This document shows, piece by piece, positions 1 to 19,019 of a DNA stretch of 64,000 nt. Source of the stretch: Closterium sp. NIES-65. Taxonomy: Eukaryota; Streptophyta; Zygnematophyceae; Desmidiales; Closteriaceae. The DNA is taken from the NCBI GenBank assembly GCA_948144175.1, contig CANXME010002307.1:2377001-2441000 (forward strand). The letters run 5' to 3'. Below the pieces are notes generated by a model. That model was not told where the DNA came from and made no database searches. It was given only the letters and a program-made list of their open reading frames with translations. Both the position numbers and the translations under genes were made by a program. Numbering within the stretch: the stretch's first letter is position 1; each line of letters opens with the position of its first letter.

Positions 1-1500
1 GATCACCAGACTGAAGTGCCTTGGTGAATATATCAGCAGTGTTGGCCTGAGTGGCCACGTAACGCAGATGAAGCTGACCACGTTGCTGCAACTCTCGAGC
101 CAGGAAGTAACGTATAGCGATGTGCTTCGTTCTGTGCTCCAGTCTGTGCTCCTCACACAAGGCAATGGCAGCCTTGTTGTCAACGTACAGCACTGGAGGA
201 GAACGAGGCTGCTCTCCCAGGTCGGTCAGCAGGTAGGTGAGCCAGCGTAACTCCTGTGCAGCCATGGCTGTGGCGTAGATCTCAGCCTCACAACTGGAGC
301 TGAGAACTGAAGACGAACGTGTAGAACGCCACGAAACTGAGCCAGAGCCAAGACTGAAGGTGTAACCCTGTGACGACCGCTGAGTAGCCTGGTCGTCAAC
401 CCAAGAAGCGTCTTAGTGCCCAGTGAGAACAACTGAGCTCCTCCCTCCAAGCACGAGCCCCATGCCCGATGTACTGCACAAGTAGCGCAATACCCTCTTT
501 GCAGCATCCCAGTGCACCTTTCGGTGCCTACCAGGAGCCACGTAGCGGGCCAAAAGGCCAAGAGGGTACGCTAGGTCAGGACGAGTGCAAGTCATCAGGT
601 ACATGAGGCAGCCAACTAGCTCTGGGTAAGGACCACTCGGCTCTACGGACTCATCCGAAGGCAGAGCTGAGAGCGAGTGACCTGTAGCCAGAGGAGTGGC
701 CTGTGCCGAGGACCAGGTGAAGCCGAAGCGCTGAAGGACCTGCTGCACCATGTGTGACTGAGTCAGTGTGATGGTGCGGCGTGCTCTGTCCCGGGTGATC
801 TGCAAGCCAAGGTAGCTGCGCAGTTCACCCAGGTCTGTGCACGTGTGTCTCTTCTGCAGCTCCGACTTCACGTGGGCGAGTGCCACAGTGTCAGCAGTAG
901 CAAAGACCAAGTCGTCGACGTACACAAGGACGTAGAACGGCGGCAGTGAGGTGTCGGTGCGCAGAAACAGCGACGGGTCAGTAGTAGAAGGTGCGAACCC
1001 AAGTGCTGCAAGTCTAGTCCTCAATGTGTCGTGCCACTCACGTGGCGTCTGGCGGAGACCGTAGACCGGCCGCCGGAGGCTCCACTGGGTACCAGGAGGA
1101 AACGACCCAGTGAAGCCAGGTGGGCGGCGCAGCCAGACCTCCTCATGCAGGCTGCCCTGCAAAAAAGCTGTGCTTAAGTCAAGAGAGTGAAGCTCGTAGT
1201 CACGCTGAGCAGCAACGTGCAGTAGCACCCGAAGAGTGGTCATCTTCAGGGTGGGGGAGAAGGTGTGAAAGAAGTCTACTCCCTCTCGCTGACTGAACCC
1301 TCGAGCAACGTAACGAGCCTTGAAGACGTGCGGAGAACCCGGCGGCCGCTTCACCCTCAAAATCCATATGCCACTGACGATGTTCGCCCCAGGAGGGGGA
1401 ACCTCGTCGACGTAAGTGCCAGTGGACTGCCACGATGCCGTCTCTGCGTCCATGGCTGACTGCCACTGAGAGGAGTACTCACCCGCGATCGCCTCAGCGT
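1..1500 (-). pseudogene. RT and RNase H region of copia A
   Basis: Copia reverse transcriptase with the YVDDLVFA active-site box near 917 and the usual N-terminal RT block (ARYVARGFSQREGVDFF) near 1300. The RNase H region, with the DNKAA and HIALRYFLAREL blocks, runs to the left edge. Fossil copy. Confidence 0.85.
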
Positions 1501-2999
1501 AAGAGCACGGGGTCGGGATGTCTGGAGCATCCGGGTCTCCCTCAGGGGCAAGCAGCATGGACACGAGATGAGGCGCAGCGGCTGCAAGACACTCAAGGTC
1601 CTCTTGTCTGACCTCAAGGACGTCCGTGCCTAGAGCACACTCACCCCCGACGGACGGAGGACAAACAGACTCAGACTCACCAACAAGACTCGCGGCGTAG
1701 TCTAGACGACAGCGAGCAGCAAAGTCGACGAGCTCAGCAACTAGGGCAGACGCAGCAGCAGACTCAAAGGAAGGGTCAGTGACAGCAGTGGCCAGGAGAC
1801 GCGTGATAGTAGGACTGGTAGCACGAAGAGAGTCAGACTCTGGGTCAGCAAGAACAGGAAGAGAGGACGTAGGAGGAGACAGCAGAGGGACACGCTGTGG
1901 AGCAGTGGAAGGACGCAGAGTCATATAGTGTGTGACAGGGACAGGTGGAGGACGCTCACGCGGAACACGGCGACTAGTGCGAGCAGCACGAATAGGTGAC
2001 ACAGGACGAGACACAGGCGACACGAGACGAGACTGAGGCTCACGACGCTCTGTAAGACTGCTTGTCGGACCAGTATAGGGAGAAGGACCAGGAATTGGCG
2101 AGGCAGGTGGTAGCTGTGACTGCGACTGGACAGGCGGAGGACACTCTAAGGAGGGAGGAGGACTAGGAGGAGGCGGCTGACCAAGAACCTACTGAAGGAG
2201 CGGAACGAAGTACGGCCGCGGCCCTGAAGTGCCCTTAGAAGCAGTAGAGACAGCACCAGAACCTCCAGCTGAACCAGCACCAGCAGCACTAGAACCTCCA
2301 GTAGCACCAGCAACACCTCCAGTAGCTCTAGTACCTCCAACAGCACCAGCAGCACCTCCAGCAGCTCCAGGACCTCCAGCAGCACCAGCAGCACCTCCAG
2401 CAGCTCCAGCACCTCCAGCAGCACGAGCAGCACCTCCAGCAGCACCAGCACCAGCAGCACCTCCAGCAGCTGCAGGACCTCCAGTAGCAGCAGGGCCTCC
2501 AGCGGGCGGTACTTCAACACCAGGAGCTCCACTCTGGAGGCTGCAGCGCCGAGCGTACCACTCACGTAGCCGCTAAGGGGAGGGAGTCTCCGGCTGCGAC
2601 AATGCACCCGCAGGACCACCAGCCCCAACTCCAGCAGACCCCCTAGCTCTAGTAGCTCCACGACGGAGGCTGTAACACTGGGAGTACCACTCACGCAGCT
2701 GCTGTAAAGAGGGAGCGCCAACAGGCGCAGTACGGTCAGTCTCAGAACCCCCAGCCTCAGCTCCTCTAGGCTCAGCACCCCTAGTCGAAGCACCCCCAGG
2801 CTCAGCACCCGCAGTCTCCGCACCCCCAGACTCAGCACCCCCAGTCTCCGCACCCCCAGGCTCAGCATCCCAAGGAGGGAGGGGGTCTACCGACGGGACA
2901 CCTGGGGTGAGGAAGAGCAGCGGGGGGGGGAGCGGGGCAGTGCGGTAGGGGAAGAGACGGTAAAAGGGTACCGACTCGTCAAACGTGACGTCCTGAGAG

Positions 3000-4300
3000 G
3001 TGAAGACACGGCGCGAGGTGGGGTGGTAAAACTGCCAGCCAAGCGCGTCAGGGACAAAGCCAAGGAAGACACAAGGAACGGCACGGGAGGAGAGCTTGTC
3101 CGCGGACGTATCGCGGACAAAGGCTCTACATCCCCAGACTCGGAACACCGACGCATCGCCAACCTCCCCCGTCCAACGGAGGGTAGGCGAGGTCTCCGGA
3201 ATAGAGAAACGGGGCCAGAGGTTGAGCTGATGTGTGGCGTACTGCACTGCAAACGGCCACACGAAATGGGGGGCAGCCGCATGGATCATGGAGGTACGAG
3301 CGACCTCCATGATGAGACCAATGCGGCGCTCAGCAACCCCATTCTGCTGCGGAGAGGCCGGGAGAGTGAACGTCTGACGGATGCCGTGCTCCGCACAGTA
3401 GGCTGCCAAGAGGTCAGAGGAAAACTCGCCACCTCTGTCAGAGTGCAGACGTAGGACAGGAAAGTCCGACTGGAACCGGTCGCGGAGCTGGAGACGAGCA
3501 GCAGGGATCCAGGGGATCAAGACATCAAAGACCTCACCCTTGGTACGCAAGGGGAAGACCGTGGTGTAGCGCGTGTAGTCGTCGACGACCAGCAGAAAGT
3601 ACCGCTCGTGGCCCTGCCCCCGGACGCGAGCGGGGCCCCACACGTCCAGGTAAAGAGTCTGCAGGGGAGCCTCTGTGGGAGGGAACGAGGAAGAGTGAGG
3701 AGCGGCGCGCTGCCGCCCCTCGACACAGGGAAGACAGGGAGGAGCAGGCGAGGGTGGCAGGGGAGGGAGAACCCTGGGAAGACCAGAGACAAGGTACCTG
3801 GAGTGCATGCCGCGAAGGCGCTGCACTGACGGGTGACCAAGGCGGTGGTGCCAGAGGACAGTCCTGTGCGACAGGGAGCGACACGAGCATGGGGCCGACA
3901 GCTGACCTGACGCAGACGCAGCCGCAGCTACCTGAGGGGACTCAGTGGTCAGTGTGTACAAGTCCGTCCCTGGCTGCCGAGTGAAGGTAGCCAGGTGACG
4001 ACCCGTCTGGGCACACGTGCAGTGTGTCACACGCTCATAGGCAGGGGTGAACTGGTGAACACCCGCGTCCTGGAGCGCGGAACCCGCCACCAAGTTCGTA
4101 GAGAACGAGGGGAGGTAGAGGCCCGACAGCGTGCCAGACGGGACAGCAGGACAAGGGAGGGCAATGGTGGAGGTCGCAAGGACCGGACCTCCTGAGGGGT
4201 CAGCAAGTGAGACAGCAACTGGTCTAGGAAGCTGCTCTAGGGCAGTGCGGTCGCGAAAGAAACAGCGAGAAGCACCTGAGTCCGGTGTGAAGGTGTGAAG
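3000..4300 (-). pseudogene. Protease and integrase region of copia A
   Basis: Minus-strand protein has the aspartic protease motif FTPDSGASRCFF (about 4275), the pre-integrase block LWHHRLGHPSVQRL (about 3840) and the integrase core with DVWGP, HSDRGGEFSS and QQNGVAERR (about 3640-3310). Order protease-integrase-RT is diagnostic of Ty1/copia. Confidence 0.88.
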
Positions 4301-4559
4301 TGCCTGAGTAGGTGCGGTACCAGCAGACGCAGATGCACTAGCACCTAGGGCAGCAGCCTCACCAGGATCTAGAGCAGCAGACGCACTAGCACCTAGAGGT
4401 GCAGCCTCACTGGTCCCAATACCCCCGTCGGGCGTTACACTCAGGTAACAGTCACCCTCAACACTAATAGTCAATGCATACATAGCAGCAAGGATAGCAT
4501 CATAATCAAGAGCAAAGATATCAATCCCCTTCTTAAGCAGATCAGCCCAGCGGGGCAAC

Positions 4560-5699
4560 TCAGAGGCGTCAGGAAACTGCTCGCGCCAGGCGTCGTCGAG
4601 GCGAAAGAAACAACGCTGCGCCGTGTGAAACCTCCCACAAGTCTGGCCAGTGCGGTCACCTATGCGGATGACGTACGGGCACGTACCTCCACCCCCAGAC
4701 CCCCCACGCTGAGAGTACCACTCACGGAGCTGCTGGGGCGACGAGGTCTCGCTGGGACACTGCTGCTGCTGCCTCTGGCCGCCGCCGAGCCCGCCACGCT
4801 GCACCGCTCCACCACGCCCTCCACCAGCTCCACCGCCGCCACCACCGCCACCACCACCCCCGCCACCTCCACCACCGCTGCCGCCCCCTCCACCCCCTCC
4901 ACCACTACCTCCCTCGCCGCCACCTCCTCCACCCCGGCCCCCCTTGCCCCTGCCGCCCTTGCGCCGCCCACTGGGAGCGTACGCAGCTCCAACCCCCTCA
5001 GCACCTAGGAAGTCGAAAGCAGCAGCAGCAGATGCAATGGAGGGGAGAAGGGGGGAGGGGGAACATCCCTCAAAGAAGGGAGTGCGAGGGTCGCGCCGAG
5101 AGGCACCTATAGCTACAATGCTCTTCTCAGCTGCAAGGAGTTCCTTCTCGAGTATGTCGACAGTGAGGTCTGTGGGGGAGAGAGCGAGAAAGTGGTCCCT
5201 GACAGCGCGAAGAGAGTCAGGGAGGCGAGTGACTAGGTGGTAGAGGGTGAGGTACATCGGGGGGGGTGGGGGGGGGTCTTGGCTAGGAAATCGGGGGGGA
5301 GCGCGGCACGGTAGCAGAGATCACTAGTACGAAGGTGAGTGATGAGGTCAGCTACAGTGGCAAAGGCAGACAGATCCGGGAAGAGATAGGGCAGTGAGAG
5401 ACGGCCTATCGCAGCAGTAGCAGGGGAGGAGTAGTGTGCAACTACAGCATCGTACAGCTCCTTAGCGGCAGGTGACTGCGAACGGCTAGGCGAGCATGGG
5501 CGTCACGAGTCTGCCACAGTAAGAAAGCACTGCTGTCAGCAGTAGCAGCAGGTGCAGGGGCAGCGCCGGACGTGTGGTCATATAGGGAAACGTCGTCCTT
5601 GGCAGTGATCTGAAGGAACAGGTGTAGGTCATCGAGCCAGACATCAAACTTAATCGGTCGGCCCTCAGCGTCAAAAGTGAGAACAGTGGGACTAGCCAT
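4560..5699 (-). pseudogene. gag region of copia A
   Basis: The gag N-terminus, MASPTVLTFDAEGRPIKFD, matches that of element B. A poly-Gly run (about 4790-4960) and a cysteine/histidine zinc-knuckle-like block (about 4600-4680) follow. An REWYSQ motif precedes the knuckle. Confidence 0.8.
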
Positions 5700-6100
5700 A
5701 GTGGGAGTAGCAGTAGCAGTAGTAGCAGTAGCAGTAGCAGCAGTAGCAGTAGCAGTAGCAGCAGTAGCAGTAGCAGTAGCAGTAGCTGCTGCACGTGGGG
5801 CGGCGCGGCTCGGTCAGGGTGGTGCGATTCGGGCGGCGCGACTCGGGCGGCGCGACTCGGGCGGCGCGGCTCGGGCAGGGCGGCGCGGCGCTGCTCGAAC
5901 TAGGCTACGCGGCACGGCACGACGGTGGGCCTGCGCGTGGGCGGCTGTGCGTGGGCTGTAGTCGTGCGTGGGCGGCGGCTTACGTGGGCGACGCGGCGGC
6001 CTACGGGCGGGGCTGCGGGCCGCTCGTGGCGACGTGGGCAGCTAACAGTCGGCGCGCGCGTAGAAACGGCCGCGCGCGGGCTGCTAGCGGGCGACTCGCG

Positions 6101-6135
<35 letters not shown>

Positions 6136-6279
6136 TGCGCGCGGCACTAGCGAGCTGCGCACGGGCAGCAGGAGAAGGAGAGGCGCACGAGGGCGCACTA
6201 GGAGAGAGGCGCTTTAGGGTGCTTCTAACGGTGGGCCCTTAGGTAAGTCCTAGGTCTAGGACCTAAGCTCTTAATACCA
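5700..6279 (-). other. Leader of copia A: AGCAGT-type microsatellite, GC-rich tract and A28 run
   Basis: Between the 5' LTR and gag lies a hexamer-like GTAGCA/GCAGTA repeat (5706-5790), a GGCGCGGCTCGGGC-rich stretch, and a run of 28 A (6104-6131; T on the element's sense strand). No gene here. Elements F and H have related leaders. Confidence 0.7.
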
Positions 6280-6405
6280 TGTCAGAAAGAAGAAGTGATT
6301 GAACTAGGAACATTGGTGGTACAAGTAGGAAACCCTAGAGTAGTGTACCCCCTAAAGGCTAACCCACTATAGCCTACACAACAATAACATATATAATGTT
6401 TGACA
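6280..6405 (-). repeat. 5' LTR of copia A
   Basis: 126-bp TG...CA terminal repeat. It shares the central block GTGTACCCCCTA and the TATATAATGTTTGACA end with the LTRs of B and F. The primer site follows directly at 6279 downward. Confidence 0.85.
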
Positions 6406-6758
6406 CCCATTTCTGGTCTTCTCTTAGCAGCTGATTCAGAGCCGCGGCTGTCTTGCTAAAGTTCGGTATTACGGTAGTAGTTGAGGAATCCGAGCACTGC
6501 CCTCAGCGTGCTCCTGTCCTTCGGCTGCGGGACTCTATCCAATACCTCCACCTTCGCTTGCTGAATTCCTAGCTGCCCCCTTTGGACCTCGAATCCCAAG
6601 TACTTCACCCCGGTATTCCCGAAACTGCACTTCTTCGGGTGGCAAGTAAGGCCGGCCTCCCGGATGGCATCGTAGCTTGCACGTCCTTCACGTGCTGCTC
6701 CGCGTCAGGACAGAAGACCACCACGTTGTCTATGTAACAGGCTGCTGCTGGCACCCCC
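6406..6758 (-). pseudogene. Gypsy element J, downstream RT segment between insertions A and B
   Basis: The minus strand encodes Ty3/gypsy reverse transcriptase: a CYIDNVVVF box next to B, then PKDRSTLRAVLGFLNYY, typical of the block just past the RT catalytic core. It continues the RT sequence found on the far side of B at 14434. Copia A cuts it on the left. Confidence 0.85.
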
Positions 6759-6890
6759 TGTTGGAATCACTGAACAGGAATGAATGAACTAGCAGTGAAA
6801 TGAGTACAAGTACCTAACCCTAGAATTGTGTACCCCCTATAGGCTAACCCACTGTAGCCTAAACTAACACAACATATATAATGTTTGACA
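6759..6890 (-). repeat. 3' LTR of copia B
   Basis: 132 bp, TGTTGGAATC...TTTGACA on the plus strand. One difference from the 14302 copy. Confidence 0.93.
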
Positions 6891-7123
6891 CACCCCCATA
6901 GGCAAAGTGGGGGAGAACTAGGGGTCACAAGACCAGTCAAGGCAAAGCAAAGCAAAACAAGCTCAGGGTGGATCTCAAGGATACCACACAAATTCCGAGC
7001 ACAAGCAAGTGGTCACAAGACCAGTTCACATGCAGGTTTATAATAGAGCAAAAGGTACAATGATCACAACCTAACAAGAGTAAACATGCAGATATATATA
7101 TAGAGATCACAGTACAAACAGAC

Positions 7124-8900
7124 TCAAGAAGTAAGCAAGTGAGGTCTAGTAGGCACAAGGCCTAGAAGAGTGCAAAAGCGCTGATGGTCACAAGGCTGAA
7201 GCGCCTTGGTGAACACATCAGCAGTGTTGGCCTCAGAGGCCACGTAACGCAGGCGAAGCTGACCACGCTGCTGCAGCTCTCGAGCAAGGAAGTAACGCAG
7301 AGCAATGTGCTTCGTTCTGTGCTCCAGTTTGTGCTCCTCACACAAGGCAATGGCTGCCTTGTTGTCGACGTACAGCACTGGAGGAGAACGAGGCTGCTCT
7401 CCAAGGTCGGTCAGCAAGTAGGTGAGCCAGCGTAGCTCCTGGGCCGCCATGGTTGTGGCGTAGATCTCAGCCTCACAACTGGAGCTGAGAACAGAAGAAG
7501 AGCGAGTAGAACGCCAAGAAACAGAACCAGAGCCAAGACTGAAGGAGTAACCCTGAGACGACCGCTGAGTAGCCTGGTCGTCTGCCCAAGAAGCGTCTGA
7601 GTGCCCAGTGAGAACAACTAGGACTCGCCCTCCAAGCACTAGCCCCATGCCCGACGTACTGCACAAGTAGCGCAACACCCTCTTAGCTGCATCCATGTGC
7701 TCCTTCCGGTGACGGCCGGGAGCGACATAGCGTGCAAGAATGCTGAGAGGGTATGCAAGGTCTGGTCGAGTGCAGGTCATCAGGTACATGAGGCAACCCA
7801 CAAGCTCTGGATACGGGTCACTCGGCTCTACGGACTCATCCGAAGGCAGAGCTGAGAGCGAGTGACCGGTAGGCAGAGGAGTGGGCTGAGGCGAGGAGTA
7901 CGTGAAGCGGAAGCGCTGAAGGACCTGCTGCACCATGTGTGACTGAGTCAAGGTGATGGTGCGGCGTGCTCTGTCCCGGGTGATCCGCAAGCCAAGATAG
8001 CTTGTCAGATCACCCAGGTCTGTGCACGTGTGTCTCTTCTGCAGCTCCGACTTCACGTGGGCGAGTGCCACAGTGTCAGCAGTAGCAAAGACCAAGTCGT
8101 CGACGTACACAACGACGTAGAACGGCGGCAGTGAGGTGTCGGTGCGTAGAAACAGCGACGGGTCAGCAGTAGAAGGCGCGAACCCAAGAGCCGCAAGCGT
8201 AGTCCTCAGTGTGTTGTGCCACTCACGAGGCGCCTGGCGGAGACCATAGACTGGCCGTCAGAGGCTCCACTGGGTACCAGGAGGGAACGACCCAGTGAAG
8301 CCAGGTGGACGACGCAGCCAGATCTCCTCGTGAAGGCTGCCCTGTAGGAAAGCAGTGCTGAAGTCAAGCGAGTGGAGCTCGTAGTCACGCTGAGCGGCGA
8401 CGTGCAGCAGAACCCGAAGAGTGGTCATCTTCGGGGTCGGGGAGAAGGTCTGGAAGAAGTCAACTCCCTCTCGCTGACTGAAGCCTCGTGCAACGTAACG
8501 CGCCTTGAAGACAGGCGGAGAACCCGGCGGCCGCTTCATCCTGAAAATCCACATGCCACTGACGATGTTCGCCCCAGGTGGGGGAACCTCGTCGACGTAG
8601 GTGTCTGTGGACTTCCAGGAAGCCATCTCTGTGTCCATGGCTGACTGCCACTGAGAGGAGTAGGGACCGGCCATCGCCTCTGCGTAAGAGCGTGGGGTCG
8701 GGATGTCTGGTGCATCCGGGTCTCCCTCAGGGGCAACAAGCATGGACACGAGATGGGGCAAAGCGGCAGCAAAGCACTCAAACTCCTCCTGCCTGTCCTC
8801 AAGGACGTTAGTGCCAAGAGCACACTCACCCCCGACGGACGGAGGACAGACAGACTCAGAATCAGCAACTAGGCTAGCAGCGTAGTCTAGACGACAGCGA
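7124..8900 (-). CDS. RT and RNase H region of copia B
   Basis: The N-terminal RT block (VARGFSQREGVDFFQTFSP) lies near 8470 and the YVDDLVFA box near 8105. RNase H, with SDASWADDQATQRS, SSCEAEIYA, YVDNKAA and EHRTKHIALRYF blocks, runs from about 7610 to 7150. The protein ends a little past RNase H, as in other copia elements. Confidence 0.9.
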
Positions 8901-9339
8901 GCAGCAAAGTCGACAAGCTCAGCAACTAAGGCAGATGCAGCAGCAGACTCAAAGGAAGGGTCAGTGACAACAGTAGCCAGGAGACGCGTGACAGTAGGAC
9001 TAGTAGCACAAAGAGAGTCTGACCCAGGGTCAGCAAGAGCAGGAAGAGAGGAAGCAGGAGGAGACGGCAGTGGGACACGCTGTGGAGCAGTGGACGGACG
9101 AAGCGCCATCCGGTGAGTGCTTGGGACAGCAGGAAGACGCTGACGCTGGACTCGACTACTAGAAAGAGCAGTGCGGACATGCGACTCAGGACGAGACTCA
9201 GGCGACACAGGACGAGACGCAGGCTCACGCCGCTCAGTAAGACCTCCAGTCGGACCAGTGTAAGGAGCAGGACCAGGGAGAAAGGAGGCAGACGGTAACG
9301 CCGACTGCAGCTGGACAGGCGGAGGACACGCTAAGGAGG

Positions 9340-10400
9340 GAGGAGGAAAAGGAGGAAGCTGACCAAGAACCTGATAAAGGAGCGGAACAAAGTACGGCCG
9401 AGACCGAGCAGCGACACTAGAGCCAGCATGGACACCCGCACCAGGATTCGCAGCACCAGCAGCAGCTCCAGCGCCCACGTCCTCAGCACCAGCGGCAGCT
9501 CCAACGCCCGGGTCCTCAGCACCAGTAGCAGCTCCAACGCCCGGGTCCGCAGCACCAGCGGCAGCTCCAACGCCTGGGTCCTCAACACCAGCAGCAGCTC
9601 CAACGCCCGGGTCCTCAGCACCAGCAGCGGCTCCAATGCCCGGGTCCTCAGCACTAGCACCAGCTCCAACGCCCGGGTCCTCAGCACCAGCGGCAGCTCC
9701 AACGCCCGGGTCCTCAGCACCAGTAACAGCTCCAACGCCTGGGTCCGCAGCACCAGCGGCAGCTCCAACGCTTGGGTCCTCAGCACCAGCAGCAGCTCCA
9801 ACGCCCGGGTCCTCAGCTCCAGCAGCAGCTCCAACGCCCGGGTCCGCAGCACCAGCGGCAGCTCCAACGCTCGGGTCCTCAGCACCAGCAGCAGCTCCAA
9901 CGACAGTGGGGTCCGCAACACGAGGCACGCCACTCCGAAGAGTGCAGCGCCGCTCGTACCACTCACGGATCCGGTCGCGGGAGGGGAGCTCCCGAACGGG
10001 AGAAGAAGCACTAGCACCAGTCCCAGTAGTACGTCCGGCTCGAGCGGTACCTCTCCGGAGGCTGCAGTACTCTAAGTACCACGCACGCAGCTGCTCCGAG
10101 GAGAGGGCTCCTCCAGGTGCAGGACTCCCAGGCCTAGTACCTCCAGACTCAGAACCCCCAGACTCCGGACTCCGCAGCTCAGCACCACGAGGCTCCACAC
10201 CCCCAAGCTCAGCACCCTCAAGCTCCACACCCCCAGGCTCCACACCCCCAGGCTCCACACCCCCAGGCTCCACACCCCCAGGCTCCACACCCCCAGGCTC
10301 AGCACCCCCAGGCTCAGCACCCCCAGCAGGACGAGAGTCGACAGCTACCTCAACAGGCTCAACCGGGTCTACCTGAGACACACCTGAGGGAGCGGCACCC
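9340..10400 (-). repeat. Protein-coding tandem repeats in the integrase-RT linker of copia B
   Basis: Two in-frame arrays. A 15-bp repeat coding PGGVE/PGGAE lies at about 10160-10330. A 33-bp repeat coding DPGVGAAAGAE lies at about 9450-9905. Both keep the reading frame. The linker also carries two copies of an R[EA]WY motif (about 9960 and 10080). Confidence 0.85.
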
Positions 10401-10479
10401 TGAGGGGGGAGGGGGTCTGCAACAGCAGCACCTGGCGCGAGGAAGAGAGGCGGAGGGGGGAGCGGGGCAGTGCGGTAGG

Positions 10480-11900
10480 GGAAGAGGCGGTAGTAGGGGA
10501 CGGACTTGTCAAAAGTGACGTCCTGGGAGGGCAAGACTCGGCGCGAGGTGGCATGGTAAAACTGCCAATTAGACGCGTCCGGGACAAAGCCGAGGAAGAC
10601 GCAGGGAACAGCACGGGAGGAGAGCTTGTCCACAGACGAATCGCGGACAAAAGCTCGAGACCCCCAGACTCGGAAAGGCGACGCATCGCCAACCTCCCCC
10701 GTCCACAGCAGTGTGGGCGAGGTCTCCGGCAAGGAGACACGGGGCCAGAGGTTGAGCTGATGCGCAGCGTACCGGACCGCAAACGGCCACAGAAAGTGGG
10801 GGGCAGGCGCATGGATCAAGGAGGTACGGGCAACCTCCATGACCAGGCCAATGTGGCGCTCCGCAACCCCATTCTGCTGTGGAGAAGCCGGAAGCGTGAA
10901 CGACTGCTCAATGCCGTGCTCGGCACAGTAGGCTGCCAAGAGGTCAGAGGAGAACTCACCACCTCTGTCAGAGTGCAAGCGCAGGACAGGAAAGTCCGAG
11001 TGAAAACGCTCGCTGAGCTGGAGACGGGCTCTGCGGATCCAAGGGATCAAGACATCAGGGACCTCACCCTTGGTGCGCAAGGGGAAGACCGAGGTGTAGC
11101 GCGAGTAGTCGTCAACAACTATCAGGAAGTACCTCTCCTGACCCTGACCACGGACGCGGACTGGGCCCCACACGTCCATGTGGAGTGTCTGCAAGGGAGC
11201 AGTCGTCGGGGGGAACGAGGAGGAGTGAGGAGCGGCGCGCTGCCGTCCCTCGACACAGGGGAGACAGGTAGGAGCACGCGAGGGTGGGAGGGGAGGAAGG
11301 GCCCTGGGCAGACCAGAGACAAGGTACCGGGAGTGCATGGCACGAAGCCGCTGCACAGACGGGTGGCCAAGGCGGTGGTGCCAGAGGACAGTCTCGTGTG
11401 CCAAAGAGCGACACGAGCAGGGGGCGGACAGCTGACCTGACGCGGACGCGGACGCAGTCGCAGCAACCTGAGGGGACTCAATAGTCAGTGTGTACAGGTC
11501 CGACCCCGGCTGCCGAGTGAAGGTAGCCAAGTGACGGCCCGTACGAGCACACGTGTAGTGTGTCACGCGCTCGTAGGCAGGGGTGAACTGGTGAACACCC
11601 CCGTCCTGGAGTGCACATCCTGCCACCAAGTTCGTAGAGAACGAGGGGAGGTGGAGACCTGACAGTGTGCCCGACGGGACCGCAGGGCAGGGAAGGACAG
11701 TGGAAGAGGTCGCAATGACCGGACCCCCAGAGGGGTCAGCAAGGGAGACAGCAACTGGCCGAGCAAGCGGCTCAAGGGCAGTGCGGTCACGAAAGAAGCA
11801 GCGAGAAGCACCTGAGTCCAGTGTGAAGGTGTGCAGTGCGGCAGTCGACGCAGTACCAAGGGGGGGAGAAACACGAGCACCTAGAGCAGCAGCCTCACCA
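10480..11900 (-). CDS. Protease and integrase region of copia B
   Basis: Protease motif FTLDSGASRCFF near 11820. Pre-integrase HHRLGHPSVQRL near 11370. The integrase core carries DVWGP, VVDDYSRYTSVF, HSDRGGEFSS and QQNGVAERH (about 11180-10850). The C-terminal block FRVWGSRAFV follows. Confidence 0.9.
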
Positions 11901-11999
11901 GCACCTGGGGTAGCCGACACGCGAGTACCTGGAGCGGCAGACGCACTGGCCCTAATGCCCGGGTCGGGCGGCACACACAAGTACTCAGCACCCTCTCCA

Positions 12000-13315
12000 C
12001 TAGTAGACATCACATACATGGCAGATAGAATAGCATCAAAGTCTAGAGCATAGATATCAATCCCCTTCTTCAGGAGATCAAGCCAGTGGGGCAGCTCAGT
12101 GGCCTGAGGGAACTGAACACGCCAAGCGTCGTCGAGACGAGAGAAGCAGCGCTGTGTGGCGTGCGGTCGTCCACACTGCTGACCAGTGCGGTCACCAGTG
12201 CGAGTGACGTACGTGCAGCTAAGACCACCCCCACCCCCGTGCTGAGAGTACCACTCACGGACCTCCTGGGGCGAGGGAGTGTGCTGCTGGCCCTGGCCAC
12301 CGTCAGTGCCTCCACGGCCACCACCACCGCTGCCACCTCCTCGACCACCCCAACCCCTGCCGCCGCCTCGTCCACCGCCACCCCAACCGCTGCCTCCATT
12401 CCTGCCACCTCCCCCGCCGCTGCCGCCACCACCCCCACCGCTACCACTCAACCCTCCAGCCGAGCCACCACCCCCACTGCCTCCACCGCCCCCACCGCCG
12501 CCTCCCCCGCCGTCACCGCCACCACCCTTGCCCCCTTTGCCCTTGTCGCTGCGGCGTCCGCTCGAGGCAGACGCAGCGCCGACCTTCTCAGTACCAAGAA
12601 GGTCGACAGCAGCAGCAGAGGCGACAGAGGGAAGAAGGGGGGAAGGAGAACACCCCTCAAAGAACGGGGTACGGGGGTCGCCACGAGAGGTACCTACAGC
12701 GACTATGCTAGTCTCAGCTGCAAGTAGCTCCTTCTCAAGGAGGGCAATGGTGAGCTCAGTGGGGCAACGAGCTAGGAAGTGGTCCCTGACAGCACGCAGT
12801 GTGTCAGGGAGGCGGGTGACTAGGTGGTAGAGAGTGAGCCAGAGTGGAGGGGGGTGCGTGGCAAGGAACTCAGCAGGCATGGCGGCACGGAAGCGGGCCT
12901 CACTAGTACGGAGGTGCGTGATGAGGTCAGCGACTGTGTGAAAGGAGGCCAGGTCGGGAAACAGGTAGGGGAGGGAGAGACGGCCTAGTGCGGCAGAGGC
13001 AAGTGAGAAGTAGCGAGCAACTACAGCTGTGTACAGTGCCTGTGCAGTCTTGTGCTGACCAAAGTGCTCGCGTTCGTCTATCGGCAGGGAGTTGCGAATG
13101 GCGAAGCGAGCGTGGGCATCACGAGTCTGCCACTGTGAGCGAGCAGTGCTGTCAGCAGTAGCAGCAGGGGCAGTGAAATGGCCTAGGGCGTGATCGTACA
13201 GTGAGATGTCATCCTTGGCTGTGAGCTGTAGGTAGAGGTGCAGGTCATCGAGCCAGGTGTCAAACTTCACAGGGCGGCCCTCAGCATCGAACACGAGAAC
13301 CTGTGGGCTAGCCAT
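12000..13315 (-). CDS. gag region of copia B
   Basis: Starts at 13315 with MASPQVLVFDAEGRPVKFD, then a UBN2-type gag-like helical region (WLTLYHLVTRLPDTLRAVRDHF). A poly-Gly/Ser tract follows at about 12540-12300, then a PQEVREWYSQ motif, and a CX14CX3HX4C knuckle-like block near 12150-12215. This encodes the particle structural protein in copia elements. Confidence 0.85.
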
Positions 13316-14301
13316 AGGAACAGTAGAAATAGCAGCAGTAGCAGTAGGAGAAGCAGGTAGGACGAACCAGGTAGGGCAGGGCGGCGCGGCCCGGTTCAGG
13401 TCAGGTCGCGGCTCGGCTGGGTGGCGCGGCTCGGTTCAGGGCGCGCGGCTCGGCTCGGGGCGCGCGGCTCGGGTCGCGCGGCTCGGGTCACGGCGGGGAT
13501 GGGCCGCCCGCTCTCCCTCGTGTGCTGCGGCGGGAACGGGCCGCCCGGGGCCTCTAGGTTGTGGGCACGGGTCGGCGAGGTCGGCACGGGGCCGGTTGGG
13601 GCCCTAGAGGGGCGAGCCCGGGGCCGATCGAGGCCTGAGCGGGGCTAGCGCGGGGCCAAACGGGGCCTTGACGGGGCTAGCAAGGGGCCGACGGGGCCTG
13701 AACGGGGCTAGCGCGGGGCCGACGGGGCCTGAAACGGGGCCGACGGGGCCTGAAACGGGGCTAGCGCGGGCCCGATTGGGGCCTGAATGGGGCTAGCGCG
13801 GGGCGGACGGGGCCTGTAACGGGGCTAGCGCGGGCCGACGGGGCCTGAGAGGGGCTAGCGCGGGGCCGACGGGGCCTGAAACGGGGCCAACGGGGCCTGA
13901 AATGGGGCTAGCGCGGGCCGACGGGGCCTGAGAGGGGCTAGCGCGGGGCCGACGGGGCCTGAAACGGGGCCGACTGGGCCTGAAACGGGGCTAGCGCGGG
14001 CCGACGGGGCCTGAGAGGGGCTAGCGCGGGGCCGACGGGGCCTGAAACGGGGCCGACGGGGCCTGAACGGGGCTAGCGCGGGGCCTGAACGGGGCCTTAA
14101 AGGGGCCGACGGGGCCTGAACGGGGCCGCTAGGGAGAGCGGGCGTGGGGCCGACGGGGCCTGAACGGGGCTAGCGCGAGGCCGTCAAGAGGGGCGTGACA
14201 CGCCGAGGCGCCCTAGGGCACAGGTAGGTAGGTAGGTAGGTAGTTACGTAGTGGTGGGCCCTTGGAAAATTTCGGTCCTAGGAAGGACCTGCTCTATACC
14301 A
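13316..14301 (-). repeat. Leader of copia B with GC-rich minisatellite
   Basis: The stretch between primer site and gag is non-coding. From about 13620 to 14180 it is a tandem array built from GGGGCCGACGGGGCC, TGAAACGGGG and CTAGCGCGG blocks in 30-50-bp units. A short (GGTA)n run lies at about 14223-14242. Confidence 0.75.
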
Positions 14302-14433
14302 TGTTGGAATCACTGAACAGGAATGAATGAACTAGCAGTGAAATGAGTACAAGTACCTAACCCTAGAATTGTGTACCCCCTATAGGCTAACCCACTGTAG
14401 CCTTAACTAACACAACATATATAATGTTTGACA
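14302..14433 (-). repeat. 5' LTR of copia B
   Basis: 132 bp, paired with 6759-6890. The primer site lies directly to its left on the plus-strand map (14301 downward). Confidence 0.93.
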
Positions 14434-14950
14434 CCCCCCGCAGTATCGTGTCCATGGCGCGCTGGAACAGAGCAGGCGCGTTCTTCAACTCGAATGGCAT
14501 AAATCACCACTCATACAAGCAGTCCGGCCCGTGAAACGCCGTCTTCTTGCAATCTGTCAGTCTGATTGGGATCTAGTTGAATCCCTGCCGCAAATCTAAG
14601 GTAGAGAATACTTTCGCCCCTTGCAGCTTATCGAAGATTTCTTCGGCCGACTGCATGGGATACCAATCTGCCACCGTGACCTTGTTCAGACTTCGCTAAT
14701 CCCCACATATTCTCCGCGCTGAGACGGCTCCAGTCAGATCTTTCCGCGAGGTTACAACCGTCGCTGCAGCGTAGTCGCTCTCTGACCGGTGTATTAACCT
14801 CGCCTCCAACAGCTCGTTGCACTTCTTGGTGCAAATGTCTAAATCCCGCGGGCTCATCCGCCGCTTCCGTTGATAGACTGGGACTTCACTGGTGAGCTCG
14901 ATCTTCATCTCGTGCGTGGTACACTTCCCCAGCTCCAGCAAGGTGTACGC
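14434..14950 (-). pseudogene. Gypsy J reverse transcriptase, N-terminal half
   Basis: Minus-strand residues VPVYQRKRRMSPRDLDIC, LIHRSESDYAAATVV and MPFELKNAPALFQRAMD match the first RT blocks of Ty3/gypsy pol. Copia B separates this from the CYIDN box at 6758. Confidence 0.87.
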
Positions 14951-14959
14951 AAAAGTCCC

Positions 14960-16150
14960 GCGGTGCCGCTTCCGCGTCTCCCTCGGTCTCTCCCTCCATC
15001 ACTTCTATGGCCATGTGCGCCGCCCATCCTTCATCTATCTTCTCGTCGTATCTAGCTTCGATCATGGCTAACGACTTCTTCTGCCATTCAATGGACCCAA
15101 GGTTTCTATACCTCTCGCAGCACGCGATGTCTCTTTGCAGCTCCTTCGCCTTCAAGTGCATCCGCATCGTATCCAGGAGCCAGGTCATCACGTTTGCATC
15201 CATGGCTCGGCCTAAGGCTGCTCAGCGCTGTTGCCCGGTCACCTCTGGATGTGCAGTGGCTCCCCACAAGTGTCCCATGGCCGCCTCTCTCTTGTTTGCC
15301 GTCGGCTGTTCCCAAACTCCCCTCTGTACGTCATAAATCATTCCAGGCCCCGGAAGCTCCCCTTCCATGCGGAATCCGCATGCATCTGCGTAGGATACTA
15401 GCGTGGGCAGTGCCTGCCGAGGATTGCCCGGCTCGTTGCATTGGTACTGCGACGGGTGGTCCATGCATGTCACGGGGGCCGGTAGGCGATTCGGCTCCAG
15501 GATGTCGCTCACTAGGCGTGGCTCCGGACGCTGCATTAGCGCCAACGAGTGCCGCAACGCCGCTGTTGACATCACATTCTGCCAGTACCTCCGTGGTCGG
15601 TGTGCCCGCGATCCCAGCTGCGCCGCGTCGACCGGTACTCCTCTCCCCAGGACCCCCACTATCTCCTCGAACGCTCGTTTCATGGGCTCTCTCCTGTCTT
15701 CTGCCAGATCCACGTTCTCCAAGATGTAGGCAACCTCTCCTTAGCACTGCTGAAGCATCTCTAACACTCGTTGGAGGTCTCAGAACGACGCTCCTCTGAC
15801 ATCTTCCATCCCCAGACCTTCCCCAGCCCTAGAGTATCCTTGACATTCCCTTCACCAGATCCACCTGTCCCCACCGGTCCAGTACTCCTTCTGAGATATC
15901 CCGCACGTCATGTACTTCCTGCACTGCTTCATGCGGGATGGCGTCCTCCCACATCTGGTCTGGGTATTCATCTCGCAGCAGCAAGGCATGGTGTCATGCC
16001 ATCTTTCGCACTACTGGATTGCGCTTGACATGAATCCACTGCTTGATGGTACACCCTGCTCGCAACGCCGCTGCCAGGCCAGTCCCGATTCCCCTATATA
16101 GCTCTAAGACGCGTATAGGTACGTCCAAGGCCTGAATGCAACTGACGCGT
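14960..16150 (-). pseudogene. Cytosine-C5 DNA methyltransferase domain inside gypsy J
   Basis: This segment sits between retropepsin and RT. Motif I is VLELYRGIGTGLAAALRAG, near 16110. A VDLV block follows. Motif VI is YILENVDLAED, near 15715. Motif VIII is SRAHRPRRYWQN, near 15610. The C-terminal block has PSQYQCNEPG, LPTLVSYADACGF, AAMGHLWGATAHP and AMDANVMTWLL (15450-15180), as in motifs IX-X of C5 methyltransferases. The family transfers a methyl group from S-adenosylmethionine to cytosine in DNA. Capture of such enzymes by retrotransposons is known (from memory) in charophyte algae and dinoflagellates. Here it is a fossil, broken at more than one point. Confidence 0.85.
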
Positions 16151-16489: not shown

Positions 16490-16740
16490 GGTAGGAGTAC
16501 CACTTCCACGGGCCTTCTCGTTTTCGGCATCCATTTGGGCTCTACTCCCTCGGCTGTCATGAGTTGAATCCCCCTCTCCATGGTCCGTCCGGCTACGTCC
16601 AACTTCAACTGTTTGGCGAGCCCCTTTCCTATCAGCACATGATGCGCGCCCGTATCTATGATTGCCTGCTCCATGGGTAGGCCCCCCACGGTAAGGCTCC
16701 CCTTCTCTGCAATCAGCACTGATGCCTAGCACACTAGCCG
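16490..16740 (-). pseudogene. Gypsy J retropepsin
   Basis: Minus-strand LTVGGLPMEQAIIDTGAHHVLIGKGLAKQL shows the DTGA active-site triad of an aspartic protease (about 16656) with the usual following ILIG-like block. It lies between gag and the methyltransferase. Confidence 0.85.
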
Positions 16741-16980: not shown

Positions 16981-17937
16981 CTAGTTAGGTAACTGCTCCA
17001 GTCGCAGCTGCAGCCGCCGGACTTCGGCTTGGAGCTCTTCCTTAGTCGCTCCCAACACTTCTCTCGGCCGACTGTAACAGTCTTCCTTCCGATGCCCGCG
17101 TTTCCCGCACTGCTCACAGGTCAGCGCTTTGGGGCAGTCCCGCTTCAAATGCCCGTGTTCCCCGCAGGTATGGCAGAGCCGGGGGTCTGCGCGACCGCTG
17201 CCCCCGGAGGAGGAGTCTGGTACTGTCGCTGCTGCCCAACTCGTCCTCGCCTGACTCCTTCCTTCTGAATCTTCCAGATCCAGCAGTCGCTGCGCCTGTT
17301 CCGTCTTCTTCGTCAGAAGGTAAACTTCCTTGAGGGTGATGTCAGCGCCTATGCCGTAGACGGTGCTCCGAACCACTCCTTTCAGCTCGTCGTCCAGCCC
17401 CCGTACGAACTTCCTCACAAGCAGGCATTCATCCTGGCTTTCCAAGTCCTCGGCTAGTTCTCGGAGTCGGCAGTAGTACGCCAGCAGCAACTCCTCCTTC
17501 TTCCGTCGGAAGTCCCGAAACTCATCGACGCGCGCTTTGGTCTGTCCAGCGAACTCCTTCCACATCAATTGTATGAACCGGGCCGTAGGGTTGGAGATCT
17601 CTCCTTCCGCTAATTCTTCCAAGACCTCGTCTCGAGTCAGGCGATAGAACGTCTCTGCTTCGCCCGCCAAGGTTCCCACCATTTTCCGGAAGAACTCCGC
17701 CGGGTCATATCCATCTCGCTCCCAACAGAACTGGACGGTCTCTAGCTGCATAAATGTGAAAACAATCACGCAAGCATCTTCTCTAAGCTTGCCTACTTTC
17801 TTAAGTACTGGCGACGGGTTACCGTTGTGCTAACGGTTCCTTTTTGCCCACCAATTCCTAGTTTTCGGTTCGTTCGATTTGGCTCCTGCCAGCTCCGTCA
17901 TTATCCTCTCTACTGTAGCTTTTATTTCGCCTAACAT
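16981..17937 (-). pseudogene. Gypsy J gag
   Basis: Retrotransposon gag core (WERDGYDPAEFFRKMVGTLAG, then DEFRDFRRKKEELLLAYY) followed by two CCHC zinc knuckles, CHTCGEHGHLKRDC and CEQCGKRGHRKEDC (about 17180-17070). The zinc knuckles bind RNA in this family. The sequence is traceable upstream to an ATG at 17937. Confidence 0.85.
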
Positions 17938-18235
17938 TCACGAAGATATATCTAATGCCTACGCAAAGATTAGGATCGTGACATAACTGTTTGGCACTCA
18001 ACTCCAATTCAGGTCATCATACCAACTTGAAACCGGCTGACAGAATAAGCACACCAAAAAGACGATGGGGCGATTGATACAGGCCACGTATGACGGCCTG
18101 ACAATAGGGAGCAGCAACTGCCACTTATCGAGTTGGCGTACAACAATTCGACATCCTCCACCACCCAACAGTCAACTTTCTACCTCAACTACGGACAAAG
18201 CCCGATCATACCCGTGACAACGAATCCCTAAAATC

Positions 18236-18376
18236 TGTCAGAATCCCAACCACTAGACCATTGGGATAAAAGGGCTTGTTTCAGTAGCGGGTCAGTGCGC
18301 CCATAACCCCCCAGGCGAACGCGCCTGTAACCCTCTCCAGGATCAATCGGGCATCCACAGTGCAGATCTACTGACA
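18236..18376 (-). repeat. 3' LTR of TRIM K
   Basis: 141 bp, preceded (minus strand) by the polypurine tract. Confidence 0.92.
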
Positions 18377-18429
18377 CCCCCCCACACTAGGAGGCCCACG
18401 ACTAAGCACAGCGGCACCGGCCTACATGT

Positions 18430-18501
18430 GCATACACCGGGATTCGAACCCGAGACCGCTTTGATACCATGTCAGAATCCCAACCACTAGACCATTGGGA
18501 T
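18430..18501 (-). promoter_or_regulatory. tRNA-like sequence / type 2 Pol III promoter candidate in TRIM K
   Basis: If 18501 is tRNA position 1, the A box starts at position 8 and the B box at 52. T33, the T-loop TTCGAAT and a 5-bp T stem (TCGGG/CCCGG) then fall in the canonical places. The D stem pairs with wobbles. The anticodon stem is weak and the acceptor ends do not pair, so this is not a functional tRNA gene. Confidence 0.6.
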
Positions 18502-18610
18502 AAAAGGGCTTGTTTCATTAGCGGGTGAGTGCGCCCATAACCCCCCAGGCGAACGCGCCTGTAACCCTCTCCAGGATCAATCGGGCATCCACAGTGCAGA
18601 TCTACTGACA
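18470..18610 (-). repeat. 5' LTR of TRIM K
   Basis: 141 bp. Its 3' end (minus strand) supplies the 5' half of the tRNA-like sequence. Confidence 0.92.
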
Positions 18611-19019
18611 AAATCCCATCCCACGTGCACAACAATTCGCCGAAATAACTACAAGCAGCCTGGATTTGAGCAACTGATGCAATAAAATGAACAATCATAA
18701 TCGCTAAACGCAACGCCGACCGTCACTGTCGCCCCGTCACTTTCCAACCCGACGACCTGGTTTTGCTCGACACTCAGAACCTCCGCTTGCCCATCACTGT
18801 AAAGTTACGCCCGAGATATTACGGGCCGTTTCGCATCAGCCACATGATCAACCCGGTAACATCACACCTCTTCCTCCCCGCTGACTAGTACGTCATCCCA
18901 TCTTTCCACATCAGCCTCTTCTGCCCATACATTCCGTGAGAAAGTCAACTGCCACATAGCCGACCATCCAACATGACCCACCGAACCAATCATTCCGCCT
19001 GCACATTGTTGGAGACTAA

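Follow-up and report, generated by a model that had tools for sequence, protein, structure and literature searches.

The window that we analysed is a stretch of 64,000 nucleotides from Closterium sp. NIES-65 (contig CANXME010002307.1, positions 2,377,001 to 2,441,000), and its minus strand contains a dead copy of a Ty3/gypsy retrotransposon that carries a C5 DNA methyltransferase. The copy belongs to a high-copy Ty3/gypsy family of Closterium, in which a single gag-pol polyprotein includes a Dnmt3-type enzyme (DNMT) between the protease and the reverse transcriptase (RT). Taken as a whole, our results make it likely that the window holds a dead member of this family and that the polyprotein-borne Dnmt3 has a role on the DNA of the element itself. 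An earlier note on the window, made from its letters, had proposed a methyltransferase captured by a gypsy element; it needs to be corrected in that the enzyme is of the Dnmt3 type, that the element is no longer alive and has been interrupted by two copia insertions, that it extends past the window, and that its motif IV reads Glu-Cys, so that methylation of its own copies, which the note had put forward, would be a conjecture.

A Dnmt3-type domain between the protease and the reverse transcriptase

The 5' part of the gypsy element lies at 17983-14434 (-), in the order gag, protease, C5-methyltransferase and start of the RT (positions of minus-strand motifs, frames and stops are window coordinates). 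Motif blocks, a read-through translation and relatives define the broken methyltransferase domain at 15153..16119 (-), with motif I at 16107-16078, motif IV, read Glu-Cys (GAA TGT), from 15848, motif VI at 15722-15696, motif VIII at 15611-15582, the PTLVSYADA block at 15407-15381, the AMGHLWGAT block at 15281-15255 and motif X at 15218-15171. All five minus-strand blocks that the earlier note had named were found where it placed them, and the position between protease and RT was confirmed by the IIDTGA motif (16662-16627) upstream and an RVT_1 match downstream.

A read-through translation of 594 amino acids was used as the protein query, with residues 150-560 scored. The region matches the Closterium protein P0001 with E 2.8e-232 and 84% identity, while P0006 is 91% identical over 22% of the query; 22 proteins were found at E <= 0.001, namely 20 from Closterium, one from JGI data and one from Marchantia, which by similarity puts the host in or close to Closterium. 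The P0001 match, together with the 150 scored places that a search of the own genome turned up (see below), indicates that the similarity is not due to chance. As for the type of the enzyme, which had been left to be placed, both the profile and the fold comparison point to Dnmt3: among solved C5-methyltransferases, DNMT3A is the best match (E 1.8e-28), followed by a plant DRM-group DNA methyltransferase (5e-15), DRM2 (1e-12) and a tRNA enzyme (6e-8). The motif order is linear from I to X, without the rearrangement of the DRM enzymes. The domain resembles the catalytic domain of DNMT3A/3B in fold and motif order, and differs from it in its ~20% identity and in having Glu in place of Pro in motif IV. 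Judged by its sequence, the domain is a member of the Dnmt3 family.

Copies of the element in the Closterium genome

A search of the own genome (874 Mb, 2400 contigs) with the C-terminal half of the domain gave 150 scored matches, the window place included, out of 1184 first-look candidates, numbers that are rough in both directions because some matches are so alike that contigs may repeat each other. The lowest listed E value was 3.4e-62, and part of the 150 scored places contain stops. Six copies (L031-L036) were picked for their long open frames and are therefore uninformative on the share of intact copies. Each of the six has one open reading frame (ORF) of 1999-2139 amino acids with CCHC, DNMT, RT and RNase H landmarks. 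The protease motif is present in five of them (all but L032, a copy that shares 99% identity with L031), and the integrase landmark in four (L033-L036). Pfam added H2C2 and rve in both L032 and L033 and a protease in L033, not in L032, so that L033 has gag CCHC, aspartic protease, RVT_1, RNase H and rve in the Ty3/gypsy order; no tyrosine recombinase family was matched in these two copies at E <= 0.01. The window copy shows the same series, with gag, protease and RT in the window and RNase H and integrase in L037, the adjoining own-genome DNA beyond the left edge of the window (C2009:2367100-2377000).

The fetched copies have the ends TGTCA...CCGACA, and all six are flanked, as read by eye, by 4-bp target duplications (CACG, ACTT, CTTC, CATC, GGTG and GTCA, from L031 to L036). 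The two plain terminal repeats of a typical Ty3/gypsy element were not found; instead, there are split direct repeats, arranged A-coding-B-A-B in L032, L033, L034 and L036, and as A-coding-B alone in L031. L035 (oriented 429-9266) reads A-coding-B-A-B-A-B, with the extra A-B inside one 4-bp target duplication; this extra unit and the short form of L031 hint at recombination between repeats. In the five copies with at least two A repeats, these are 100% (L032), 99.7, 99.0, 99.8 and 98.6% identical, and the B repeats 97.8-100%.

That the methyltransferase belongs to the element, as the earlier note had held, is borne out by the common strand, by its place between protease and RT, and by the uninterrupted reading frame that includes it in all six long-ORF copies and in proteins annotated in Closterium, P0023 and P0027 among them; the domain also recurs in other gypsy copies of the genome. 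Two annotated Closterium gene models, P0024 and P0028, merge copia and gypsy-DNMT pieces and could mislead counts of gene families.

Relatives in bryophytes and in Haematococcus

A third protein search returned 1557 proteins at E <= 0.01. Among the 120 of these matches that were listed, the named sources are Marchantia polymorpha, Calypogeia fissa, Sphagnum troendelagicum, S. fallax and Haematococcus lacustris, with no named Klebsormidium sequence among the same 120 or among the hits listed in the other protein searches. The bryophyte proteins, which include Mp_4g09160 and MARPO_0091s0058, resemble the Closterium element in their Dnmt3 type and, in P0057 and P0066, in having a protease before the DNMT, and differ in their motif IV Pro and in their hosts, which are land plants. 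In Marchantia, P0066 and P0115 are single proteins that combine DNMT, RVT_1 and RNase H, in P0066 in the order protease, DNMT, RT, and P0057 has CCHC and protease motifs ahead of the DNMT.

The second group, for which we set the label Haematococcus-type (DIRS-type, assigned by motif, is likewise our label), is arranged differently. P0055 and P0056 have RT, RNase H and then DNMT (in P0056 detected by our own profile, not by Pfam), plus H2C2, rve and PHD; these three follow the DNMT by Pfam in P0051 and by eye in P0055 and P0056. RT and RNase H also precede the DNMT in P0072 and P0144, as in P0056, whereas P0105, which includes an integrase zinc domain, starts inside the DNMT. A DNMT between RNase H and integrase is thus a second arrangement. 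A PHD finger is seen in P0051, P0055, P0056, P0067 and P0169, not in P0072; the polyprotein would then combine a methyltransferase with what may be a reader of histones.

The phylogenetic tree was built from 60 rows with the motif IV columns excluded and without host Dnmt3 or named Klebsormidium rows. It unites the Closterium rows and the window copy at 92/82, support that the program does not yet rate as firm, the window copy and P0001 at 100/95, the bryophytes with unnamed kin at 99/96 and the Haematococcus group at 100/98; the DIRS-type rows are far off from the Closterium rows. The streptophyte elements (protease-DNMT-RT) and the Haematococcus-type elements (RNase H-DNMT-integrase) may have taken up Dnmt3 separately, a possibility that we entertain tentatively, given that the DNMT occupies different positions in pol and that the Haematococcus-type clade is separate; on this tree, with the composition just described, the DIRS-type rows nevertheless stand farther from both groups than the two stand from one another. 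In the viral contigs of IMG/VR, tblastn found no relative of P0001. One protein of a Candidatus Obscuribacterales metagenome-assembled genome, P0092, stands among the element methyltransferases and probably comes from an algal contig that was binned wrongly.

A Glu-Cys active centre

Motif IV was read by position on our own profile in the 165 rows with a profile match among 171 fetched proteins. The Closterium rows read Glu-Cys in 26 and Ser-Cys in one of the 27 that are readable (13 of the 40 are not), and the Pro-Cys of active C5-methyltransferases was not found in these rows. In the bryophytes, Pro is present in 18/18 readable of 22 rows: 14 from Marchantia (Pro-Cys 13, Pro-Ser 1; 3/17 unreadable), two from Calypogeia (Pro-Cys 2/2) and two from Sphagnum (Pro-Cys 2, with one of three unreadable). 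The DIRS-type rows are Pro-Cys in 25/25, and the 77 rows without an organism name are Pro-Cys in 67, Pro-Tyr in 2, Glu-Cys in 4 and unreadable in 4. The single Haematococcus row is unreadable; the nine-row clade that includes it has Glu in P0056, P0072, P0105 and P0144 and Pro in four others. We considered the absent Pro-Cys as decay of the window copy and rejected this, since the relatives show Glu-Cys to be the state of the family. In the own genome, a 20-base pattern for A-G-W-E-C-Q-G was matched exactly at 645 places, that for A-G-W-P-C-Q-G at 0 and the reversed controls at 0; the 645 are motif matches, not elements confirmed one by one, and Pro forms in another context would escape the pattern. 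Both Glu codons and both Cys codons were seen among the matches listed.

The other catalytic residues are mostly kept in the readable Closterium rows, with the Cys in 27/27, the motif VI Glu in 25/26 and the motif VIII Arg residues in 23/25 and 22/24, and all are retained in L031-L036. On the tree, Pro and Glu require three changes. Common descent of all Glu rows was tried and rejected (approximately unbiased test, p 0.039, for a group defined after the tree had been seen). The motif IV Glu of Closterium seems to be kept by selection. It may be, though we hold this somewhat less likely than not, that retrotransposon Dnmt3s have repeatedly exchanged the motif IV Pro for Glu, and that selection has kept it for a chemistry or target choice special to the elements; the gypsy group concerned would be one of the green lineage, have split repeats of DIRS-like arrangement and also live in bryophytes. 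We found no earlier report of Glu in motif IV in the open-licence papers, which were looked at narrowly.

What the Glu does can be considered against published enzymes (here and below, the statements cited are those of passages of each paper). The motif IV Cys is the nucleophile (PMC6709928). Because this Cys, the motif VI Glu and the motif VIII Arg are mostly kept, we lean towards an active enzyme of changed property, which would keep the covalent chemistry and in which Glu before Cys would alter the rate or the choice of target. The main rival is that methyl transfer has been lost from the Glu-Cys form, which would be retained as a helper in DNA or cofactor binding, base flipping or assembly, by analogy with the catalytically mutated helpers Dnmt3L and DRM3. 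The motif IV Pro has been called invariant, and OsDRM3, with Cys and without Pro, was predicted to be inactive (PMC2965745); the pattern count of 645 to 0 and the more than one origin of Glu also agree with a helper. Against it, members of the DRM3 clade lack the proline-cysteine and Dnmt3L proteins are mutated there (PMC2965745), unlike the Closterium rows with their conserved catalytic residues, and in M.HhaI the Pro contacts motif VI through its carbonyl (PMC4802922), which is common to any residue. We hold the helper to be rather unlikely, and an outcome other than these two to be improbable.

Purifying selection on the methyltransferase

Pairwise ratios of nonsynonymous to synonymous substitution rates (dN/dS) were obtained with a simple count method for seven pairs, which share copies and are not independent. 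For the DNMT, dS is saturated in three of the seven; the four computable ratios are 0.080 (L031/L032), 0.192 (L033/L034), 0.027 (L031/L034, dS 2.6) and 0.084 (L035/L036, dS 2.1), the deep ones being rough because dS is saturated or nearly so. Where computable, the ratios of the other domains are 0.06-0.20 for gag, 0.03-0.18 for the protease, 0.03-0.14 for the RT, 0-0.30 for RNase H and 0.03-0.15 for the integrase. The methyltransferase is under purifying selection. Between Closterium and Marchantia, the DNMT keeps pace with the RT and the protease, with 34-42% protein identity compared to 35-46% for the RT and 26-39% for the protease. Comparisons within Closterium show lower identity in the DNMT than in the RT (49% vs 66% in P0027/P0023 and 39% vs 65% in P0025/P0030), and in L035/L036 the DNMT changes faster, with a dN of 0.176 vs 0.111.

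The faster change within Closterium, the broken window copy and the stops in some of the 150 scored places would suit a passenger, captured once, useless to the element and decaying in all copies. The DNMT ratios of 0.03-0.19 within the range of protease, RT and gag, the motifs kept in the six copies (which were picked for long ORFs) and the 100% identical repeats of L032 make this very improbable. A host or microbial gene adjoining, or inserted into, one gypsy copy, as the different frame of most of the window domain might suggest, can be dismissed almost entirely, since the fetched copies, like proteins annotated in Closterium and Marchantia, have the same domain at the same place in a single ORF.

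Comparison with known systems

The capture of Dnmt3 by a gypsy element is not new, since KnitGypsy-Dnmt3 of Klebsormidium nitens, with a Dnmt3 in the Pol of a Ty3/gypsy element (de Mendoza 2018, PMC5890265), is of the same kind. The same source bears out the statement of the earlier note that charophytes and dinoflagellates are the known carriers. By its published description, on which the likeness rests, KnitGypsy-Dnmt3 shares with the Closterium element an intronless Dnmt3 without motif rearrangement in the gypsy Pol, a DIRS-like repeat arrangement combined with gypsy domains, and purifying selection on the DNMT (Ka/Ks < 0.2 there, 0.027-0.192 in Closterium). The two differ in host, in number (150 scored matches in Closterium, 'fewer copies' in K. 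nitens than in Symbiodinium) and in motif IV, which is Glu-Cys in Closterium, whereas the key residues are conserved in K. nitens (PMC5890265). SymbioDIRS-Dnmt3 of dinoflagellates is likewise a retrotransposon-borne Dnmt3 with split direct repeats; it is a DIRS element with a tyrosine recombinase (PMC5890265), while the Closterium element has an rve integrase.

DNMT3 has also been described, citing the 2018 work, in long terminal repeat (called Copia there) and DIRS elements of streptophytes and dinoflagellates (PMC12344493). Such transposons were said to be absent from land plants such as tracheophytes (PMC6338049), a statement that the Dnmt3 element proteins of bryophytes partly contradict. 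Passages of the report on the NIES-53/54 genomes (PMC10407611) mention neither methyltransferase nor gypsy nor retrotransposon, and titles and abstract openings of the open-licence literature yielded no report of Dnmt3 elements in Closterium or bryophytes. Four points appear to be new, although a report elsewhere is possible: the many-copy family in Closterium, the occurrence of carriers among bryophytes, the other domain order in the group that includes a chlorophyte, and Glu-Cys as the active centre.

Proposed role of the enzyme

We propose that the methyltransferase domain would be made as part of the polyprotein, that the protease would release it, and that the freed domain would enter the particle alongside the RT and integrase and act there on the cDNA of the element, perhaps in circular form; methylation could then mark or protect new copies of the element. 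The place of the domain in pol suggests this action, and action on the element's own DNA has been proposed for the dinoflagellate elements (PMC5890265).

Several points weigh against the reading of the window copy or against the proposed role. The search with PF00145 that the earlier note had suggested succeeded for most scanned relatives, of which 9/10, 9/10 and 2/2 in three sets passed the 22-bit cut-off, and failed for the window copy: its open ORF 15740-15222 gave no match, one frame with stops as X reached E 0.024 and 14.5 bits and the other no match, and the joined read-through reached E 0.0022 and 17.9 bits, under the cut-off. We explain the missing match in the window ORFs by the damage and by the limited stretch of the domain that this Pfam model covers. 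No target duplication of the gypsy element was recognised in the inspected flanks of the window copy. To these are added the roughness of the deep dN/dS ratios, the faster change of the DNMT than of the RT within Closterium, the predicted inactivity of OsDRM3, and the K. nitens enzyme, which gave no methylation in yeast, a result judged inconclusive there (PMC5890265). The element and the selection on its enzyme are observed, while the action on its own DNA and the effect of the Glu are what we infer from sequence.

State of the window copy and neighbouring features

The window copy is an old, dead element, with stops, frame breaks, two copia insertions and part of gag lost. The gag remnant (16984..17754, -; PF00098, E 9.8e-9) has two CCHC knuckles (17175-17134 and 17118-17077) and lacks the first ~204 residues of the full-length copies, as the tblastn match from residue 204 of the L033 ORF onward reaches 17754. 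The aspartic protease (16534..16695, -) matches PF13650 with E 4.4e-6 at residues 11-64 of the ORF 16725-15994. The methyltransferase is in two frames, with a break at ~15856-15848 and in-frame stops at 15996, 15782, 15743 and 15224, and the bulk of the domain is out of frame with protease and RT. The first part of the RT (14434..14971, -; PF00078, E 8.8e-13, and tblastn) has three stops and ends at copia J; the second (6406..6758, -), with the YIDN box at 6739-6713, was located by tblastn with P0007, P0019, P0025, P0027 and L032/L033 and ends on its 6405 side at copia K. We do not ascribe the stops to CpG decay, because 5/9 stops in four scanned stretches are non-TGA and the CpG observed/expected ratio, 0.76-0.91 in three gypsy stretches, is merely mildly low.

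Copia J (6759..14433, -) lies within the gypsy RT, with repeats at 6759-6890 and 14302-14433 that are 98% alike and a 5-bp duplication, CCCCC, on both sides, which is weak taken alone, being of low complexity. Copia K is a second insertion into the RT; its right-hand terminal repeat is at 6280..6405 (-), with its partner at 9482-9612 of L037 (97%). In L037, this repeat is followed by the gypsy RNase H and integrase to about 7611, and then by B at ~7617-7450, A at 7450-7271 continuing at 778-717, and B at 573-406; the A repeat is split by another insertion, whose 830-bp direct repeats are 97% alike. The 5'-end A repeat of the gypsy element, at 17748..17983 (-), matches the two L037 pieces by blastn with 95% and 98%, respectively. 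Including L037, the window copy reads A-coding-B-A-B. An order of nesting in which the gypsy element preceded the copia elements agrees with the repeat identities (95-98% for gypsy A and 91% for B, 97-98% for the copia repeats).

In copia J, GC-rich tandem repeats with a spacing of mainly 20-32 bp separate the 5' repeat from the ORF (13566-14182), and 33-bp tandem repeats lie within the ORF at 9342-10001. Outside the gypsy element, a 141-bp unit is present in two copies (18236-18376 and 18470-18610; 99%). The start of the second copy and the bases just before it look tRNA-like on the minus strand (TGGTCTAGTGGTTGGGATTC, TTCGAATCCCGG), and the unit is perhaps a tRNA-derived short interspersed element; ARAGORN found no tRNA at the units, and Rfam on 17900-19000 gave a single match, far below the gathering score. 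The units interrupt what appears by eye to be the C-terminal remnant of another gypsy integrase in the opposite direction, at 18100-18231 and 18640-18952 (+) (AYNNSTSSTTQQSTFYLNYGQSP; DLVLLDTQNLRLP...YYGPFRI).

Implications

DNA methylation is a frequent means of silencing elements, and why one of them should keep a de novo methyltransferase is a question that passages of PMC5890265 leave open. In Closterium, the family has many copies, including long-ORF copies that look recent, and an altered active centre that seems to be under selection, and relatives with the ordinary centre are found in Marchantia, a genetic model. Comparing the two forms of the enzyme makes this question testable.
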